Positions 7,535 to 16,958 of a stretch of 43,341 bases of DNA are shown in pieces. The notes under the pieces were generated by a model that saw only the letters and a list, made by a program, of their open reading frames with translations, had not been told where the DNA came from and did not search any database. The translations under genes and the position numbers were made by a program. The DNA lies in IMG/VR virus record IMGVR_UViG_3300038428_000030, positions 1 through 43,341 of that record, one strand, 5' to 3'. Source of the DNA: a virus. The first letter of the stretch is position 1. Every line of letters begins with the position of its first letter.

Positions 7535-8790
7535 TTCAGGATTATAAAAGTAAATCAGCCCATATTCAGGACAATGGCATCTTCTCGGAATTGCCGCGTA
7601 CCCTTGCGAAGTGGTTTGGGCGTGTGACGTATAGCAGCCCTTGGATTAACGCCTTTCCTTCTTCTAAAGATACGGAGGTCGGAGAAGGCTCAGATAAGTT
7701 TGACCGCGTAGAAGGCATTGCGGAAGTGAGGGAAGAAACCGACTTGTTTATATTCCCTGATACATACTACGGGAAAGAACAAATAGAGCTTGTTAATTCC
7801 GGCAAGAGGGTATGGGGCAGCAGAAACGCTGATGAGCTTGAAATCTATCGAAGTGAGGCTAAACCGTACTTTGACGAATTAGGAATCAACCAGGGCGAGT
7901 ATGAACTTGTCAAGGGTGTAAGCAAGCTCAGAAAATATATTAAAGAACATGACAACGAAAAGCTATGGATTAAGTGTGATAAGACGCGCGGCGATATGGA
8001 ATCGTTTTTCGTAGAAGGTTATGAGCTTTATAAAGGACAGGTTGACGACCTTGAATATCATTTAGGGCCAAAGGCGGAGATAATGACCTTTGTTGTTGAG
8101 AAGCATTTAGAAGGCACTATTGACATAGCCATTGATACGCATGGTGTTGATGGGTTGTGGCCTTCCGTTGCGCTTCTCGGTACTGAGGAAAAGGGGGAAT
8201 TCTATATTTGTGCGGTAAAAAAATGGTCACAGATTACCCCCAACCTGACCGTCATTTATGACAAGCTCAGCGACACGCTTAAAAAATATCAATGCCGGAA
8301 TTTTATAAGCCTTGAATCAAGGGCAAAGGGCAAAGATATAAAGCTGGGCGATCCCTGTATGCGCGGAGGTTCGCCGCCGTTTGAATTGCAAATGAACATG
8401 ATTACAAACTCTCCTGATGTATTTTGGTTCGGGGCAGAGGGTAAAATGATAGACCCTGAGTACGCCGCTAAATATGGGGTTATGCTTTGCGTACATAGCG
8501 ATTGGGCTTCTAAGCATCCCTTAATGGTTCAGTATCCAAAGAAATACAGGGAGCAAATTAAATTCCGTTATGACAGCGAGTTTGACGGGCATACGTGGAT
8601 AATGCCTCAAGATGCTGGCCCTCGTATTGCTGGCATCGTGGCTATGGGTGATAGCTTAGACCCGCTTTATGATGAAGTAAAAGAAATATCCGAACAGATG
8701 AAGGGCATCCAGATTGAGAGCTTCACCCGTTCAATTCCGATAGCAAAAGAAAAACTTAAAGAGTTGGCATCTTGGGGAATACGTATATGA
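7531..8790 (+). CDS. PurD-like ATP-grasp protein in the tail operon
   Basis: A 419-residue protein joined to both neighbours by ATGA overlaps. The region from about residue 70 to 290 follows an ATP-grasp plan: DLFIFPDTYYG (71-81) and a GSRNADELEIYRSE segment like the pre-grasp helix, a lysine strand (WIKCDKTRGDMESF, 146-159), a grasp strand with the conserved acid (FVVEKHLEGTIDIAID, 187-202), and a late metal-site strand (NFISLESRAKG, then LGDPCMRGGSPPFE, 257-285). This resembles phosphoribosylamine-glycine ligase (PurD) and carboxylate-amine ligases in general. No other purine gene is present and the gene sits between ejection and fibre genes, so a role in modifying a virion protein, glycan or small molecule is more likely than purine synthesis. 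The substrate is unknown. Confidence 0.6.
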   Translation: MIQDYKSKSAHIQDNGIFSELPRTLAKWFGRVTYSSPWINAFPSSKDTEVGEGSDKFDRVEGIAEVREETDLFIFPDTYYGKEQIELVNSGKRVWGSRNADELEIYRSEAKPYFDELGINQGEYELVKGVSKLRKYIKEHDNEKLWIKCDKTRGDMESFFVEGYELYKGQVDDLEYHLGPKAEIMTFVVEKHLEGTIDIAIDTHGVDGLWPSVALLGTEEKGEFYICAVKKWSQITPNLTVIYDKLSDTLKKYQCRNFISLESRAKGKDIKLGDPCMRGGSPPFELQMNMITNSPDVFWFGAEGKMIDPEYAAKYGVMLCVHSDWASKHPLMVQYPKKYREQIKFRYDSEFDGHTWIMPQDAGPRIAGIVAMGDSLDPLYDEVKEISEQMKGIQIESFTRSIPIAKEKLKELASWGIRI

Positions 8791-11249
8791 AAAAGATTAT
8801 TGCACTTATTTTTATATTTCTAATGATGACGGGTGTGGCATCCGCAACAATCAGCACGACTGTAAATAACGTCAGCTATGTTTGCGCTGGTACTACAGGC
8901 CCGTTTGCCTTCACATTCCCCGTAACGCCTGATGGCACGGCCCTTATAGTGACTGAAAAAGACCTTAGCGGAAATACCACGACACTTAATTACTCGACTG
9001 ACTATACAACTGCATCCGTAAACAACAGTTATTTAAACGGCGGAACTGTGACGCTGACTGTCGCCTGTACCTCCGGCTATACCTTGAAGATTTTAAGAAG
9101 CACGCCAGAGACGCAGTTAAGCTCCTTTACCGACGGGATGCCTACCCTCTATAAGACCTTTGAACGTGCGCTTGATAAAGTGACAATGATTGTCCAAGAC
9201 AATGCGGGGGGGGGATATGCTCCGTTAAATTCTCCCACATTTACTGGCACAGTCACTTTCCCGATCACGGGTTCAACTCAATGCCTTCATGTAAGCGGTG
9301 CGGGTGTTGTAAGCGGTACTGGTAGCGATTGCGGAAGTGGGGGCGGAGGTGGCGGTAATGTTTATACCCACGGCACTCCGACGGCCAATCAGTTAGGCAT
9401 GTGGTATGATTCTACTCATATCGCAGGTGTAACCCTAAGTCAAGACTGTACCATAACATCGGCGGGTGTAATCACTTGCCTAAAAAGCAATAACGTAGCT
9501 TTCGGGACAGGAGCTTTTGCAACAATAGCGAATTATGCTACTTTGGCATCTCCTACGTTTACAGGAATTGTAACCGTTCCTTCCTATAGCGCGGCGACTT
9601 CGGGTCTTACTATAGGAACAACGCAGGTACAGGCTACTGGAACACAGTTAAATTATCTTGCCTTAGCTACAGGCACAACGGGAACTTCATCAACCAGTTT
9701 GGTATATAGCACATCTCCTTTGCTTACTACCCCTACCCTTACGGCGGCTACGCTTAATGGTACAACCACCTTTGGCGCATTGACTGGCACAACACAATGC
9801 CTCCATGTCAATTCAAGTGGTGTTTTGTCTGCTACGGGTGCGGATTGCGGGAGTGGAGGCGGTGGGGCAAATGCAAGTGGGTACTATGTGGTTACACAGT
9901 CCACAAGTGAACCTGCCAATGCTGTTAATCTCGGAGCATTGACAACGGGGCTTCTGAAAATGGCGGTTTCTGGCGGTATAGCTACATTATCTACCGCATC
10001 TTCATCTTCCGACTATGAGGCGTATAATGTCAACCTTGCCTCGATTGCTAATTTGGCGAACTCTAGTGGATTTTTAAAGAATGATGGGTCGGGTAATTTC
10101 TCATATAGTTCGTCGTCATCAACTCCAGGTGGGTCTGATACTCAGGCACAATATAATAATGCGGGTGTGTTAGCGGGTATGTCAGCTATGACATATGATA
10201 AAAACACAACGATAGTTTATATCTCTGGCACATTGTCTGATTCATCGGGACTTAGTTCTGGTCAATCAACTGGACTGGGTATAGTAAGGACATATACATA
10301 TGGTGGAACTACTTATGATGGTTATGGTATCATATCTGATGTGACGGCGGCAGTAGCTAATTCCAATGTGGAGATAAGCGGTATTGAAAGTAATGTGTTG
10401 GTCACAAGTAATGTGAATACGGCGGGAATATACGGCGGGGAATTTCAAGTCTTTAAAAATAGTAGTGGGGGAGCCGCCCCAAATGCTGGAAACACGATAG
10501 TGTTTGATGCTATTTTGGTTAGTCAGGTTGACCCCGGAGGCACGCCGCTTTATGGTGTCGGTATCCGAGCTTACTCTGGTGATATTTCTCCCTATACCCT
10601 CAACAATGTTCGCCAATATGCGGGATTTCTTGCCGAGGGAAATAAGGGCTGGAAGTACCCATTCTTGGCTCTTGATACGGACAACTCAACTGCACTTTTC
10701 GATGTTGACCAAAATGGTGCGGGATATTTTAAGAGTAATGTTGGTATTGGTGGAACTTTACATGTTGTGAGTACGGTTCAGCTTGATTCTCTTTCCGGAA
10801 TACTTGTAGGTAATGGTGCATCGGTAGTTACGACTATTACAGACAATCATACAAATTGGGATGCAGCCTATTCCCAAAGACTACAATGGGATGGTGGTTC
10901 AACAAATCTTGTTGCTGCTACAGGCAGAACTTCATTGGGTCTTAATATAGGAAGTGATGTGCAAGCGTACAACGCAAACTTAACAGGCATCAATCAGGGG
11001 TTGGCGACAAATTCCAATGTTCAGTTTAATTTTGTATATACCGGAGGTGGAATAGGTATAGGGGGTGATCCCGGTGGTTCGGCTGGTCAATTTAGACCAA
11101 CAAATGTATTTACTGTCTATAGTAACGGTACAGGACAAACTGCACCATATAGTGTAACTGGTAGTACCCCTCCGGGGTTCTATGGATGGGGAAAAGTGTA
11201 TTACGGGGGTAATACATATTACATACCACTGTACGGAACGATTCAATAA
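8787..11249 (+). CDS. Tail fibre with signal peptide and T7-fibre-like N-terminal domain
   Basis: The ATG at 8787 is chosen because it forms an ATGA overlap with the preceding stop and puts a textbook signal peptide at the N-terminus: KK at 2-3, a hydrophobic core at 4-16, and an ASA cleavage site before TIS at 21. A TTG at 8772 would add five residues. Residues about 22-140 match the plan of the T7 gp17 tail-attachment domain: FAFTFPV, a strand pair ending in NYSTDY, then TLKILRSTPETQLSSFTDG, then ALDKVTMIVQDN. The rest is Ser/Thr/Gly-rich fibre sequence. A module with the motif QCLHV, then DCGSGGGG, occurs twice (near residues 165 and 337), giving paired cysteines. The C-terminus ends with a KVYYGGNTYYIPLYG motif. 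It is 820 residues long. Receptor binding is the likely role; the signal peptide is unexpected. Confidence 0.8.
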   Translation: MKKIIALIFIFLMMTGVASATISTTVNNVSYVCAGTTGPFAFTFPVTPDGTALIVTEKDLSGNTTTLNYSTDYTTASVNNSYLNGGTVTLTVACTSGYTLKILRSTPETQLSSFTDGMPTLYKTFERALDKVTMIVQDNAGGGYAPLNSPTFTGTVTFPITGSTQCLHVSGAGVVSGTGSDCGSGGGGGGNVYTHGTPTANQLGMWYDSTHIAGVTLSQDCTITSAGVITCLKSNNVAFGTGAFATIANYATLASPTFTGIVTVPSYSAATSGLTIGTTQVQATGTQLNYLALATGTTGTSSTSLVYSTSPLLTTPTLTAATLNGTTTFGALTGTTQCLHVNSSGVLSATGADCGSGGGGANASGYYVVTQSTSEPANAVNLGALTTGLLKMAVSGGIATLSTASSSSDYEAYNVNLASIANLANSSGFLKNDGSGNFSYSSSSSTPGGSDTQAQYNNAGVLAGMSAMTYDKNTTIVYISGTLSDSSGLSSGQSTGLGIVRTYTYGGTTYDGYGIISDVTAAVANSNVEISGIESNVLVTSNVNTAGIYGGEFQVFKNSSGGAAPNAGNTIVFDAILVSQVDPGGTPLYGVGIRAYSGDISPYTLNNVRQYAGFLAEGNKGWKYPFLALDTDNSTALFDVDQNGAGYFKSNVGIGGTLHVVSTVQLDSLSGILVGNGASVVTTITDNHTNWDAAYSQRLQWDGGSTNLVAATGRTSLGLNIGSDVQAYNANLTGINQGLATNSNVQFNFVYTGGGIGIGGDPGGSAGQFRPTNVFTVYSNGTGQTAPYSVTGSTPPGFYGWGKVYYGGNTYYIPLYGTIQ

Positions 11250-11262
11250 GAAAGGAAACCAT

Positions 11263-11499
11263 ATGAAAAAAATCATCATCACGGCATTGGTTCTGTTGTT
11301 TGCGACTACGGTATGGGCAGACGAAAAGACTGAATTGCAACTCAGAATAAGCAACTCCAAATTGATTCTACAGAATATCGAAATGCAAATGAGGTTTCTC
11401 CCACAGCAATATCAGGAGATACAAAAAGCTCTGCCTGAGTTAGAGGCAAAATTGAAAGCTATAGAAGACAAGGAAAAGGAAACTAAACCCAAGAAATAA
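11263..11499 (+). CDS. Small secreted coiled-coil protein
   Basis: A 78-residue protein. The start at 11263 is supported by the AAGAAAGGA ribosome site seven bases upstream; longer in-frame versions reach back into the fibre gene. Residues 1-19 form a signal peptide (KK, hydrophobic core, VWA cleavage site before DEK). The mature part is one charged helix with heptad-like spacing (LRISNSKLILQNIEMQM, then LPELEAKLKAIEDKEKE) and a lysine-rich tail. It could be a periplasmic chaperone or trimerisation partner for the neighbouring fibres, but no family is recognised. It lies 13 bases after the fibre and 15 before the next secreted gene. Confidence 0.7.
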   Translation: MKKIIITALVLLFATTVWADEKTELQLRISNSKLILQNIEMQMRFLPQQYQEIQKALPELEAKLKAIEDKEKETKPKK

Positions 11500-11514
11500 T
11501 CAGGAGGATTCACA

Positions 11515-12057
11515 ATGAAAAAAATACTTTTAGCATTGATGCTCGTAATTCTGTTTGCAGTTCCGGCTTACGGATTAGGGTCATGCACACAGACCGTTAA
11601 GACCTCGTACACACCACAGGACAGAGTTGCAGATGCGGTAACGGCCATAGTCACGATAACCTGTATCGCTGATTCGGGGGGTTCGGCTACCTTTCCAACC
11701 GCTACGATTGCCCTTGTGCCTTCCACAACGACAAATCCACCCTACAATCTCTATGGCTACTATTTGTATCAGGTAGGAAGAACGCCGGGAAATGTAAGTT
11801 CTTCTCAGCTTACATGCTCAGTTGCCTGTCCGACAACGCTTTACACGGTCACAATTACGGACACACAGGGATATGCAATTGATCTCGGATTGCTTACCTC
11901 AAACGGCTCAGCATCGGTAGCACAGTTGACGCTGATGGAAAATACCGCAACGGGCTATCCCGTAATCAGGTCAGCCCCTACCGTGGCGATTACCGGGAAT
12001 GGTGCTACTAACTACTCGGCCACGGTAACTCTCGACCTGATCTTTAAGGCTCGGTAA
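11515..12057 (+). CDS. Secreted beta-rich phage structural protein
   Basis: A 180-residue protein with an AGGAGG site before the ATG. Residues 1-20 look like a signal peptide (KK, hydrophobic core, AYG before LGSC). The mature part is beta-rich. Its pattern LYGYYLYQVGRTPGNVSS, then TLYTVTITDTQGYAIDLG, then a strand-rich end in VTLDLIFKAR resembles small phage virion proteins found beside fibre or decoration genes. Four cysteines in the mature part (GSC, ITC, LTC, VAC) could form disulfides if the protein reaches the periplasm. It is probably a fibre-associated or decoration protein; the exact role is unknown. Confidence 0.65.
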   Translation: MKKILLALMLVILFAVPAYGLGSCTQTVKTSYTPQDRVADAVTAIVTITCIADSGGSATFPTATIALVPSTTTNPPYNLYGYYLYQVGRTPGNVSSSQLTCSVACPTTLYTVTITDTQGYAIDLGLLTSNGSASVAQLTLMENTATGYPVIRSAPTVAITGNGATNYSATVTLDLIFKAR

Positions 12058-12068
12058 GGAGGCATGCC

Positions 12069-13103
12069 ATGAAAAAGATATTTCTATTTATAACAGCTTT
12101 GCTCCTGATTGCCTCGACTGCGTTTGCGATACCGCCATTACCCCCGAGCATTTCAGGAGGTGGTACTGCCTATATCGCCGCTGGCAAGACCTTCACGGTG
12201 AACAATACGCTGACGCTTTCGGGTGCAGATGGTGCAGCACTTGTCTTGACCACCTCCTATACAAACAATGGGGGGCCGGGAACGATTACATGGCCGGGGC
12301 CGGGAGCAACGCTTACAATTCCTACTGGCGGCGGCACCTTGGCATCAGCGGCTTTTCTTGCAGCTTCAACCTCACCTACAGCAAGCACGATAGCCGAATG
12401 GGATGCCAATTCAAACCTTTCTGCCAATAGTTTAATAGAAGGCTACCTTGCAACGGCAACGAGTTCCGCGACGGTCACATTAACCGTAGCATCCAAAAGA
12501 CAGCAGATTTTTACAGGTTCGGTAGCACAGACGGTAGTTTTGCCAGTAACAAGCACTTTGGTTCTCGGACAGCAGTTTCTTATTGTTAATAATTCCTCTG
12601 CTACTTTAACCTTACAGGCTTCCGATGCAACTACCGTGCAGGCTATGGCGGCTTCAACGTGGGCAATCGTGACCGTTAATTCAACCGCTTCTACCACAAA
12701 TACAGCGTGGAATCTGAATTATGCTTATTTGACACCTCAGTCCACAACGGCGAATTACATAGTTCTTGCTACCGTAACGACCAACGGAACATTAACAACC
12801 ACGCAGCTCGGCGGAAATTATTATATCAATAACACAGGGGCAAGCACAGCGATTACCATGACCTTGCAGCAATGCGGTACGGGTAATGCGTATAGTTATG
12901 CCGCCGAATTTGGAGTTACGGCTGCTCAATATTTACGGTTGACGGCTTATACTGGTGATGCCTTCCGCTATAATAATACAACAGGGGCAACGACAGGATA
13001 TATCAGAAGTAATACGCTTGGCACTCGGTGGAAGATAACTTGCAACGGAAACGGATATTGGGATGTTCACGATCTCTTGGGGGTTTTGAATTATGACCAG
13101 TAA
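12069..13103 (+). CDS. Second fibre-like protein with signal peptide
   Basis: A 344-residue protein with AAGGAGG before the ATG. Residues 1-20 form a clean signal peptide ending in AFA before IPP. The mature N-terminus carries a segment common in phage fibres (GKTFTVNNTLTLSGADGAAL, near residues 39-58) followed by Thr/Ser/Ala-rich repeats. The central part (STLVLGQQFLIVNNSSATLTLQ) is typical of fibre shaft or knob domains, and the C-terminus has aromatic strands (TRWKITCNGNGYWDVHDLLG) suitable for a tip. It is likely a receptor-binding protein or side fibre. The TPR gene starts 11 bases before its stop. Confidence 0.7.
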   Translation: MKKIFLFITALLLIASTAFAIPPLPPSISGGGTAYIAAGKTFTVNNTLTLSGADGAALVLTTSYTNNGGPGTITWPGPGATLTIPTGGGTLASAAFLAASTSPTASTIAEWDANSNLSANSLIEGYLATATSSATVTLTVASKRQQIFTGSVAQTVVLPVTSTLVLGQQFLIVNNSSATLTLQASDATTVQAMAASTWAIVTVNSTASTTNTAWNLNYAYLTPQSTTANYIVLATVTTNGTLTTTQLGGNYYINNTGASTAITMTLQQCGTGNAYSYAAEFGVTAAQYLRLTAYTGDAFRYNNTTGATTGYIRSNTLGTRWKITCNGNGYWDVHDLLGVLNYDQ

Positions 13104-13650
13104 GAGACCTTTATTTCTCATACTCTTTTGTATCTTTACCCTATGCTATTTCGATTTACAGACAGAAATGGGAACTGGCAAGGCAAGAGCGCACAGCAAT
13201 CTTGCGCTGATGTATTACAAGGTAGGAAGATATGCAGAGGCAAAAGAACAATGCCTGATTTCCATACAGAAAGACCCGAAAGCTCCTCACGCATACATTA
13301 ACCTTGGCGCAGTTCTGGTTGTAGAGAAAAATTACGATGAGGCGATAAAGGTTTTTAACAAGGTTTTGGAATTAGACCCCGGCGATAGGGCGGCCTATTT
13401 CAACCTTGGCAGAATCTATTACAAGACGGGTAGGCTCGAAGAGGCGGCGCATGAATTTTGGAAGGTGGCTAAATGTGGTCATGCCGATTTGGAATCGGTA
13501 GCTTGGAATGACATAGGGGTTATCCGGGCACAACAGGGGCGGCACAGGGACGCACTCGCGGCTTTCGAGAATGCCATTAAAGTTGATAAAACAAATGCAG
13601 AAGCAATAAAAAACTATAGAGAGTTTATAAGATTTCACAAGGAGGTCTAA
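13093..13650 (+). CDS. TPR protein with N-terminal membrane/signal segment
   Basis: A 185-residue protein overlapping the preceding fibre gene by 11 bases. Residues about 6-19 form a hydrophobic signal-anchor-like stretch without an obvious cleavage site. About four tetratricopeptide repeats follow (ARAHSNLALMYYKVGRYAEA; HAYINLGAVLVVEKNYDEA; AAYFNLGRIYYKTGRLEEA; VAWNDIGVIRAQQGRHRDA), from roughly residue 30 to 175. TPR proteins bind other proteins. Its place among exported fibre genes suggests a membrane-tethered scaffold or chaperone for them. TPR genes are uncommon in phages, and this one looks like bacterial cellular sequence, so transfer from a host is plausible. Confidence 0.75.
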   Translation: MTSKRPLFLILFCIFTLCYFDLQTEMGTGKARAHSNLALMYYKVGRYAEAKEQCLISIQKDPKAPHAYINLGAVLVVEKNYDEAIKVFNKVLELDPGDRAAYFNLGRIYYKTGRLEEAAHEFWKVAKCGHADLESVAWNDIGVIRAQQGRHRDALAAFENAIKVDKTNAEAIKNYREFIRFHKEV

Positions 13651-13652
13651 CA

Positions 13653-14768
13653 ATGAGCATTAAAAAATTAATCAGTTATCTAAGTATCTTTCTAATCCTG
13701 TCGCTTAGCCCGTTCGCACAGGCGGGGGGAGTATTCGGCAATATCAATTATAGCCACATAGCTTATATGATATCCACTGGTTCTTCCTACACCATACCGG
13801 AATCTGGTTGGTACAGGATTTCGGCACTTGGTGGTGGGGCGTCAGGAGGAGCGATTTTTGCCTATGGCGGAGCGGCTTCCGGTGGCGGGGGCGGTGGATT
13901 CACGGAAACGGAAATATACCTCTGGTCTGGTGATGTAATCCTCTATAGCGTTGGTACAGGTGGAGCGGCAGTAACGTCGTCTATTTCCGGTACAGGAGCA
14001 AGTGGCACCACAGGGGGAAATACTACATTGACCTGTTCTGCACGTAGTCTTTCCCTTTACGCTAATGGGGGAGGCGCGGGTTGGTTCAATATAGGTAGTG
14101 GCAAAACTGCCCCTGGTGGAACAGGCGGAACGGCATCAAGAGGAACTATAAATTCTACAGGTGGGGTAGGGGGTTCTGCTCAATACGCGGCTACTAGCGG
14201 TACTTATTATGCGTCCGGTGGAGGGGCGGCAGGTTCGCCTTTTGGCACAGGTGGACGCGGGGGAAACATAACGCAGACCAATGCCGGAGCTACAGGTGGT
14301 GGCGCTGTAGGTGGATGGCAAGGCGGGGATTTAAGTTCAAATGCGGTTACTAATTCTGGTGGAGCAGGCACAGGAGGTAATGCAGTAAATAATGCCGCAA
14401 TAGCCGGAGTAAACGCCCTTGGATTCGCAAGTAAAAACAGCACAGATGGTATTTGGCGGCAAGGCGGGGTTTGGGTAACGTCTGCCACAACTCAGGCTAT
14501 GGGGTTTGATTCACTTGTTGATCCCTTCAGGGCTTTAACTGGTGGAGGTGCTGCTGGGGCTAGTAGTACTGGTGGAGGTAGTGGTGCTGGCGGCGGAGCT
14601 GCTGCCAGTGGTTGGGGCGGTGTACTTGGGGGTTCATCGGGCAATACGGGTTCGGGAGTCGGTTGTAATAACTATCTGGGTGGAGGAGGGGGAGCAGATG
14701 CTTATTCTGCGTCCGCCACTTCTGGTGCTGGCGGCAATGGTCTAATCGCGGTAGAGAGGATAAGCTGA
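13653..14768 (+). CDS. Glycine-rich adhesin-like protein with signal peptide
   Basis: A 371-residue protein with AGGAGG before the ATG. Residues 1-25 form a signal peptide ending in AQA before GGV. The mature region opens with the module SYTIPESGWYRISALGGGAS, then GGGGGGFTETEIYLWSGDVI, as in glycine-rich phage tail adhesins. Long Gly-rich runs follow (GGTGG, GGRGG, GGGGGAD) of the kind that fold as polyglycine-II sandwiches in T-even-type gp38 adhesins. It ends LIAVERIS, a usual ending for this family. It is probably the host-range tip protein. Low-complexity DNA creates several antisense reading frames, which are ignored. Confidence 0.75.
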   Translation: MSIKKLISYLSIFLILSLSPFAQAGGVFGNINYSHIAYMISTGSSYTIPESGWYRISALGGGASGGAIFAYGGAASGGGGGGFTETEIYLWSGDVILYSVGTGGAAVTSSISGTGASGTTGGNTTLTCSARSLSLYANGGGAGWFNIGSGKTAPGGTGGTASRGTINSTGGVGGSAQYAATSGTYYASGGGAAGSPFGTGGRGGNITQTNAGATGGGAVGGWQGGDLSSNAVTNSGGAGTGGNAVNNAAIAGVNALGFASKNSTDGIWRQGGVWVTSATTQAMGFDSLVDPFRALTGGGAAGASSTGGGSGAGGGAAASGWGGVLGGSSGNTGSGVGCNNYLGGGGGADAYSASATSGAGGNGLIAVERIS

Positions 14769-14962
14769 TGCTTGAAAAGCTCGGATTGACTATCATAATC
14801 GACATATTCAAAGCGATTTGGAAAGCGTGTACGCCAAGCCCTCAACAGAAACAGAAGGTGGAAGATGAAAAGAAAATTGATAATCTTATTGATGCTGTCA
14901 ACAGTAATGACCCTGGCTATAAGTTGCCGAAGTCTGCCGACAAAGACAAGTGGGGTTCCTGA
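14768..14962 (+). CDS. Small protein overlapping the lipoprotein gene; possible spanin partner
   Basis: A 64-residue protein starting in a TGATG overlap with the glycine-rich gene. It has a short hydrophobic N-terminal helix (LGLTIIIDIFKAIWKAC, residues 5-21), too amphipathic to be a confident membrane span, then a charged tail. The lipoprotein gene starts inside it in another frame, an arrangement like Rz/Rz1 spanin pairs. It could be a degenerate inner-membrane spanin partner, but this is only inferred from layout. Confidence 0.5.
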   Translation: MLEKLGLTIIIDIFKAIWKACTPSPQQKQKVEDEKKIDNLIDAVNSNDPGYKLPKSADKDKWGS

Positions 14963-15110
14963 GCTTCAATTAGAGCATGGATGGAGTCCCACAAAGCAGA
15001 TGGAGCTTAACGGTCAGCAGGTAGATGTTCAATGTATGACGGTTGCCGATAAGACAAAACTACAAGAATATTTATTGATACTTGAGACACAACAAGGAAA
15101 GGAGAAATGA
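14865..15110 (+). CDS. Rz1-like outer-membrane lipoprotein (o-spanin candidate)
   Basis: An 81-residue protein with a lipoprotein signal: KRK, a hydrophobic core, and the lipobox LAISC ending at Cys21. The short mature chain contains proline (RSLPTKTSGVPE) as in Rz1-type proteins. Its start is nested in the preceding 64-residue gene in a different frame, the classic layout of Rz1. O-spanins join the outer membrane to an inner-membrane partner and disrupt it at lysis. The lipobox indicates a host with an outer membrane. The C-terminal half (QQVDVQCMTVADKTKLQEYL) is longer than in lambda Rz1. Confidence 0.6.
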   Translation: MKRKLIILLMLSTVMTLAISCRSLPTKTSGVPELQLEHGWSPTKQMELNGQQVDVQCMTVADKTKLQEYLLILETQQGKEK

Positions 15111-15111
15111 A

Positions 15112-15495
15112 ATGAGTTTACAAGCAGTGGAAAAGTATTTTGAGGAAGGGATACAGGCGGTGGAGAAGTTTGTAATCCCCGTGGCGCAGGTAGCCGTGAG
15201 TTGTATTCCAGGTATGCCGCCAATCGTGGGGCAGATAGTGGGTGCTTTGCCCGCACTTATGACTTCGGCAGAGCAGATACTTCCGGCAGACGGTAGCGGG
15301 CCTCTCAAGCAAGCGGGCGTTATGGGCTTCTTACAGGCTATCTGTGTAGAACTGGACAAGACCCTTACAGGCGGGGCGCACAACACCTTTGCTGAGATTT
15401 CACCTATTGCCCTTAGCGTCATTCAGAACGGCATGGCGGTAATCAACAGCAAGAATCTTGTGGCGGATCCTAAGTTGGCTAACACAGCCGGATAA
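15112..15495 (+). CDS. Hypothetical protein of the lysis region
   Basis: A 127-residue protein. The ATG at 15112 follows the previous stop by one base and has GGAGAAATGA upstream, so it is preferred over an in-frame start 30 bases earlier. It has moderately hydrophobic helices (FVIPVAQVAVSCIPGMPPIV; QIVGALPALMTSAEQI) without a clear transmembrane pattern. Similar small proteins occur in phage lysis or end-of-tail clusters, but no function is recognised. Confidence 0.6.
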   Translation: MSLQAVEKYFEEGIQAVEKFVIPVAQVAVSCIPGMPPIVGQIVGALPALMTSAEQILPADGSGPLKQAGVMGFLQAICVELDKTLTGGAHNTFAEISPIALSVIQNGMAVINSKNLVADPKLANTAG

Positions 15496-15506
15496 GGAGG
15501 CTCATC

Positions 15507-15707
15507 ATGTCTGGATTTCTCAGTAACGATTACATCAATGCAACGCAGGGCAATTACTCTATCCTTATCGGGTGGATCAAGTTTGAGTTGCCTATTGTAA
15601 TAGGGGTGATTTTAAAGGCTGTTGCGATACTTCACCCCGGGGTCAAAACCGATACGATAAGGGAACTGCTTACCCCTGCATCGAAAACACCTACACCGCC
15701 AACGTAA
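15507..15707 (+). CDS. Small hydrophobic protein, holin candidate
   Basis: A 66-residue protein preceded by AAGGAGG. One hydrophobic segment (FELPIVIGVILKAVAILH, residues about 27-44) and a proline-rich end (SKTPTPPT). Position between the spanin-like genes and the endolysin suggests a holin or antiholin, but the single short span leaves this open. Confidence 0.5.
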   Translation: MSGFLSNDYINATQGNYSILIGWIKFELPIVIGVILKAVAILHPGVKTDTIRELLTPASKTPTPPT

Positions 15708-16465: not shown

Positions 16466-16789
16466 TTAGTTACATACGGTAGTTGCCATTTTACCGACAA
16501 ATGTAACATAACAATTATTTTCGTTATAGCCCCTTGAATGATAGCTTGCTCCACCGCCTCCCGTAACAGTATACCCTCCGCCGCCTCCACCGCCCCCGCC
16601 TGTTGCAGTAACATACCATCCACTTGAATAGCTCGTTTTGGAATAAGCCGTCCGTTTCATCGGCATTAACATGGCCTTATCAAACTCATTCTGATCGTAC
16701 CACAATAGACCCAAACTTATCAGGCACACAAGAATAATCAGAACATATCTGAATGGAAATTTTGGACGTACAGCATCAGGCCGATACAT
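16466..16789 (-). CDS. Membrane protein with glycine-rich tail
   Basis: A 107-residue protein. The start at 16789 is chosen because GGAGGGAGG lies just upstream; an in-frame ATG 21 bases earlier would absorb that site. It has a transmembrane helix at about residues 15-31 (YVLIILVCLISLGLLWY), then a Thr/Tyr/Gly-rich region with a run of nine glycines, and a C-terminal tail with two cysteines. The function is unknown. It is the last gene of the leftward operon and meets the endolysin gene end to end. Confidence 0.65.
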   Translation of the reverse strand: MYRPDAVRPKFPFRYVLIILVCLISLGLLWYDQNEFDKAMLMPMKRTAYSKTSYSSGWYVTATGGGGGGGGGYTVTGGGGASYHSRGYNENNCYVTFVGKMATTVCN

Positions 16790-16958
16790 CTTTAACCTCC
16801 CTCCATTCATATTTTTCTACATCAACTAATGGGTAGCAGTGATTCACCCCATCACTATCCTTTACCCAAATAAGAGGCCCATCGTAGCCACAACCTTCAG
16901 CACCCTCATACACGAAGAACCTCTTATCTTTCAAGAATATTTTAACGTCAACTTTCAT
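16776..16958 (-). CDS. Hypothetical small protein
   Basis: A 60-residue protein starting MKVDVKIFLKDKRFFVYEGA. The ATG at 16958 follows a GGAGG/GGAGGGGAG-rich stretch, making it better than an in-frame start 33 bases upstream. A short beta-rich, acidic protein without a recognised family. It overlaps the next gene downstream by 14 bases. Confidence 0.55.
   Translation of the reverse strand: MKVDVKIFLKDKRFFVYEGAEGCGYDGPLIWVKDSDGVNHCYPLVDVEKYEWREVKDVSA

Follow-up and report, generated by a model that had tools for sequence, protein, structure and literature searches.

What role may a gene encoding a TPR protein play among the receptor-binding genes of a phage? The question is raised by a viral DNA of 43,341 nucleotides (IMG/VR record IMGVR_UViG_3300038428_000030), the whole of which is referred to below as the window. 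In a first-pass annotation of this DNA, the gene at 13093-13650 was proposed to encode a membrane-bound assembly platform for exported fibres, and thus the organising piece of a fibre export system. Here we compare this proposal with the properties of the protein, its gene neighbourhood and the related phage genomes.

The first 228 bases of the window are identical to its last 228 bases, and these terminal repeats indicate that the window is a complete genome. The protein families matched (portal or head-tail adaptor, major head protein, terminase, tail tubular and internal virion proteins) point to a podovirus with a T7-type tail. A small ORF at 14768-14962 overlaps a lipoprotein-like ORF at 14865-15110 in the manner of an i-spanin/o-spanin pair, which would suggest a diderm host. 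On the opposite strand, at 16466-16810 (-), lies a gene for a small membrane protein with a glycine-rich tail.

Results

The TPR protein and its N-terminus

Pfam TPR_1 matches the product of 13093-13650 in four stretches with an E-value of 8.2e-29 (98.7 bits, above the curated cut-off of 27.8), which places it among the TPR repeat proteins and rules out a chance ORF. The best of five AlphaFold2 models obtained from the single sequence has a mean pLDDT of 90.3, the five means ranging from 90.3 to 43.1, and contains helix pairs for four TPR units followed by a capping helix, as well as a long first helix (residues 5-43) that runs from a hydrophobic segment into the first repeat. The 34-residue units start at about residues 31, 65, 99 and 135, in a register set by eye (Table 1). 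The gene and its four repeats are thus confirmed as first annotated, and so is the signal-anchor-like start: the N-terminal MTSKRP leads into a hydrophobic run at residues 6-20, with a 15-residue Kyte-Doolittle mean of 2.45.

The lipobox pattern [LVI][ASTVI][GAS]C was not found in residues 1-40, and no ordinary signal-peptidase site was seen by eye near the hydrophobic core. The run of about 15 residues after K4 and R5 is short for a permanent anchor. Judging export and topology by a simple hydropathy and cleavage script together with the N-terminal positive charges, we infer that the protein may reside in the inner membrane with its TPRs toward the periplasm.

Table 1. Positions of the TPR gene, its parts and the neighbouring features in the window.
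Feature	Position	Strand	Basis or remark
Tail fibre, T7-type N-terminal adaptor (phrog_1640, residues 21-137) behind signal peptide	8787..11249	+	PHROG, hydropathy script
78-aa protein with signal peptide	11263..11499	+	later ATG of ORF 11182-11499
180-aa protein, four Cys, signal peptide	11515..12057	+	ORF list, hydropathy script
Upstream fibre-like protein with signal peptide	12069..13103	+	passenger after signal peptide unrelated in sibling G004
Exchangeable cassette holding the TPR gene, approximate extent	12136..15688	.	alignment ends against G004; left junction checked
TPR gene, 185 aa	13093..13650	+	ORF list, Pfam TPR_1, AlphaFold2
Signal-anchor/signal-peptide-like N-terminus, residues 1-20 (basic n-region, hydrophobic 6-20)	13093..13152	+	own hydropathy script
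TPR unit 1, residues 31-64	13183..13284	+	register by eye
TPR unit 2, residues 65-98	13285..13386	+	register by eye
TPR unit 3, residues 99-132	13387..13488	+	register by eye
TPR unit 4, residues 135-168	13495..13596	+	register by eye
C-terminal capping helix, residues 169-183	13597..13641	+	AlphaFold2 model
Glycine-rich adhesin-like protein with signal peptide	13653..14768	+	sub-threshold match PF21722

A run of genes with signal-like N-termini

As had been noted, the TPR gene overlaps the 3' end of the fibre-like gene (by 11 nt) and is followed by the adhesin-like gene, which begins at the third base after its stop. On the + strand no sigma-70-like promoter was detected in 12822-14771 and no terminator-like site in 12000-14900, in weak scans whose counts did not exceed those in shuffles and which presuppose a sigma-70 that may not be the host's; the TPR gene therefore probably shares the transcript of the fibre.

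The 12069 product is a presumed fibre. It has no Pfam, PHROG or NCBIfam match, part of it resembles proteins of three other virus contigs (40-46% similarity), and its single-sequence structure model, with a pLDDT of 41.9, was set aside as too poor to use. The label of adhesin for the 13653 product comes from a glycine-rich family, PF21722, matched at 23.4 bits, below the cut-off of 24.3.

The six consecutive genes from 8787 to 14768, the TPR gene among them, all have signal-like N-termini according to the script, versus 3 of the 44 other genes (one lipoprotein-like, one membrane protein and one P-loop protein, the last probably a false call). The enrichment gives a Fisher value of 5e-6, calculated post hoc on a hand-made gene list. 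The run opens with the T7-type adaptor fibre, the start codon of which overlaps the stop of the preceding gene and in which the adaptor begins right after the signal peptide. Sixteen phage records match this adaptor, in every case from query residue 16-21 onward and without most of the signal peptide; in the one of them that was inspected the annotated gene starts where the match starts.

Similar genes were observed elsewhere. Four consecutive signal-peptide genes of fibre or spike type are found at L092:3985-8551 (-), in a lineage with a portal 52% identical to that of the window. In an otherwise different virus contig, L013:6831-9041 (+) encodes a fibre-like protein of 736 aa whose start resembles a signal peptide, and comes after two mutually similar genes that have no such start.

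The TPR gene belongs to one allele of an exchangeable cassette

The sibling G004 could be aligned over 31,184 of the 43,341 bases of the window, mostly at 98-100% identity and at 96-100% in the longer blocks; it also keeps the small membrane protein gene of the opposite strand. No TPR was found in G004 by protein search, by TPR_1 or by phmmer (six-frame stretches of at least 40 aa, E<=1), so that the gene is absent from an otherwise similar phage, as a moron would be. The homology is lost immediately behind the signal peptide of the 12069 product (window ~12145; L018 ~19350 (-)) and returns near 15688. At this left junction the signal peptide (AFAIPP) and the ribosome-binding site are kept, while the passenger in G004 is an unrelated 806-aa spike, which has a signal peptide of the same kind and matches a beta-helix family at 26.2 bits (cut-off 25.9). 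After the spike gene comes an unrelated one, for a YiiX-like peptidase (Pfam C92 at 27.2 bits, against a cut-off of 27) that also matches phrog_1128, described as enoyl-CoA hydratase-like and assigned to the PHROG class 'moron, auxiliary metabolic gene and host takeover'. The rest of the cassette consists of three small ORFs, one of them lipoprotein-like.

G004 thus keeps the signal-peptide fibre genes with another cassette, and the alignments show the TPR gene to be one allele's part of an exchangeable block of predicted receptor-binding genes. The presence of a moron-class gene at the corresponding place suggests that accessory genes, and not chaperones, may be what occupies this slot.

The G004 contig ends carry a short (249 aa, L007:14346-15095) and a long (L019:2248-4284 (-)) version of the adaptor fibre. 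The sampled G004 population may hold both versions; alternatively, one of the ends may be an assembly artefact.

Distribution among the related phages

A portal scan returned 24 loci, 52-100% identical. The 28 records compared comprise 25 with a common portal or internal virion protein and three with the fibre domain only. As a check, the first-pass annotation had named a search for the TPR gene beside fibre genes in related phages, and this arrangement was present in G001 and G002, near-identical siblings in this region and the only two of the 28 records matched by TPR_1; it was not so in the other 26, many of which are fragments that may not reach the region. G003 ends at window 12165, near the junction, and is thus uninformative.

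G001 and G002 carry an identical TPR protein, and the stretch 8787-13650 has no differences among the three genomes. Between 4069 and 16800, 32-33 positions distinguish them from the window; these all lie beyond 14138, most of them in the end of the adhesin gene, and past ~16800 there are replaced stretches as well. In all three the TPR gene travels with fibre 12069 and adhesin 13653, the latter being found among viral_contigs in these siblings only. Since the three genomes are near-identical here, this co-occurrence is not independent and no dN/dS could be computed. The sibling differences cluster at 14648-14750, in the adhesin C-terminus, mostly at third codon positions, a pattern to be expected if a diverged copy, itself under purifying selection, had recombined with the gene.

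A second lineage is represented by G019, G020 and G021 (99.8-100% identical here, G020 being without part of the region). The order in G019 is an adaptor that has no signal peptide, an 86-aa gene and four signal-peptide genes, one of them for a beta-helix protein. No TPR was found in these three records by TPR_1 or phmmer. Signal-peptide fibre genes are therefore more widespread than the TPR, and the comparison of the gene orders shows that the predicted signal-peptide module does not have the TPR protein as a fixed part. That the latter is the organising piece of fibre export, as first suggested, is consequently unlikely.

Rarity and origin of the TPR gene

The scarcity of TPRs in phages, asserted at the outset, was borne out: of 50,697 phage records, 6 match this TPR at E<=1e-3, while a consensus TPR has 43 matches (E<=1e-4), of which three or more are Salmonella genome contigs. 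In the three of the 43 contexts that were inspected no named fibre gene stands beside the TPR, most genes there being called hypothetical. A fold search of BFVD returned viral TPR and glycosyltransferase-TPR proteins, with no fibre-linked name among the best 50 matches. A role as a component of a defence system was rejected, PADLOC giving only weak matches (TPR, PrimPol and candidate families, the best at 1.6e-4).

The rarity raises the possibility that a host TPR gene was recently captured by chance and is functionless in the phage. The restriction of the gene to two near-identical siblings agrees with such an origin, as does the abundance of TPR proteins in cells, the TPR_1 control matching 13 of 14 cellular genomes. 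The first-pass annotation, however, had tied this explanation also to a close host match, and none appeared in partial searches. A single scan of genome_contigs yielded 24 loci with identities of 25-51%, the top value being confined to 37 residues, and 395 genomes of one phylum, which may not be the host's, yielded two matches at E<=1e-18 with eight candidates scored per genome, the better being 36% identical over 141 residues. Recent host capture is thus not shown and, as the ORF is intact in three records and has codon usage (rank 19 of 38 genes) and G+C ordinary for this phage, we regard a functionless passenger as improbable.

Likeness to known systems

PilF is the pilotin of the type IV pilus and a lipoprotein, and PilF/PilW (TIGR02521) is the best NCBIfam match of the TPR protein. 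The score of 72.3 bits falls short of the cut-off (154), and since a bare consensus TPR reaches 90.6 bits with this model, the match is generic for the most part. On MamA the consensus TPR and two of three further TPR stretches obtain a better score than on PilW; the opposite order in the phage protein is a weak hint of a likeness to PilF. PilF/PilW (PDB 2fi7, 2vq2) is also a small envelope TPR protein of bacteria, and its fold is shared by residues 24-185 of the model (2fi7: Z 18.3, rmsd 2.1, 162 aligned residues, tied with O-GlcNAc transferase and others), although the phage protein, in contrast to PilF, is without a lipobox. MamA, a magnetosome TPR scaffold, is similar in fold and size, and membership in its family (NF040959) was rejected at 62.6 bits against a cut-off of 200. 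The type III secretion chaperones LcrH/SycD (TIGR02552) were rejected as well (44.7 bits, cut-off 104.8).

The genes of classical fibre chaperones, such as Tfa of lambda and gp38 of T4, are located directly downstream of a fibre gene. The TPR gene likewise lies directly downstream of a fibre-like gene and overlaps it, but its product differs from these chaperones in its TPR fold and in its predicted location outside the cytoplasm. No fibre-chaperone family is present among its nine PHROG hits or the best 25 of its 36 Pfam hits. Eight of the nine PHROG families are of unknown function and one is a glycosyltransferase. The position between two presumed receptor-binding genes might also suggest that the protein is bound to the virion together with fibre and adhesin; this we consider very unlikely given its hydrophobic N-terminus and the lack of any virion family among the nine. 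The nearest analogues of the action proposed below would be periplasmic TPR scaffolds such as PilF and, by gene position, the fibre chaperones.

Discussion

The data are consistent with an envelope-directed TPR protein encoded among signal-peptide fibre-like genes. This part of the platform proposal stands, and a narrower role, in handling only the 12069 and/or 13653 products, may apply. Our preferred reading, which we hold tentatively and at somewhat less than even chances, is that the protein is an accessory, periplasm-facing adaptor, a dedicated local assembly or holding factor of one receptor-binding cassette. Its hydrophobic N-terminus would place the four-repeat adaptor at the inner membrane, the TPRs being turned toward the periplasm. 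Translated together with the 12069 fibre, owing to the overlap and to a position typical of fibre chaperone genes, it would meet the exported fibre and/or the 13653 adhesin as they leave the Sec channel, a predicted contact, and would keep or pair these products until lysis.

Almost as likely, because G004 holds a moron-class gene after its spike, is that the gene is an envelope-acting moron. Its periplasmic TPRs would then bind a host envelope machine (a pilus, secretin or polysaccharide exporter) and not the fibres, and would exclude other phages or alter the receptor. The allele-specific presence of the gene fits this explanation, and so do the best NCBIfam match and the place of PilF among the closest solved folds, although the largely generic nature of the PilW match reduces the weight of the former. 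A precedent is described in a passage of PMC12309495: lom of lambda, the gene of an envelope protein, lies between tail spike and tail fibre genes. The product of the phage TPR gene is likewise predicted to be envelope-targeted, and the gene is lodged between fibre-like and adhesin-like genes, though Lom is a beta-barrel protein and the TPR protein is all-helical in the AlphaFold2 model. Against a moron speak the lack of promoter- or terminator-like sites of its own on the + strand in our weak scan, and the probable late co-transcription with structural and lysis genes, which makes superinfection exclusion less useful.

If the adaptor reading is extended to the whole run of genes, a two-compartment completion of the virion may be imagined, in which the T7-type adaptor fibre and further receptor-binding proteins leave through Sec and fold, with disulfides, in the periplasm, the membrane-anchored TPR protein gathers the fibre and adhesin of one allele there, and the particles do not acquire their fibres until lysis breaks the envelope. 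The signal peptide would then serve as a fixed socket for passenger spikes swapped by recombination. As a whole this scheme is speculative and improbable. In the literature searched, neither a TPR protein that assembles fibres nor tail fibres exported by Sec were found described, which does not prove their absence from print; the passages of PMC3322345, PMC3338817, PMC3556154 and PMC5587285 that name signal peptides belong to methods or references only.

Of greater interest than the TPR gene is the signal-peptide module, with its differing passengers. Should the TPR protein indeed act on exported fibres, it would represent an assembly factor for phage tail fibres that operates beyond the cytoplasm. 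Regardless of such a role, the comparison with G004, where the signal peptide is kept and the passenger differs, makes the existence of Sec-exported phage receptor-binding proteins directly testable.
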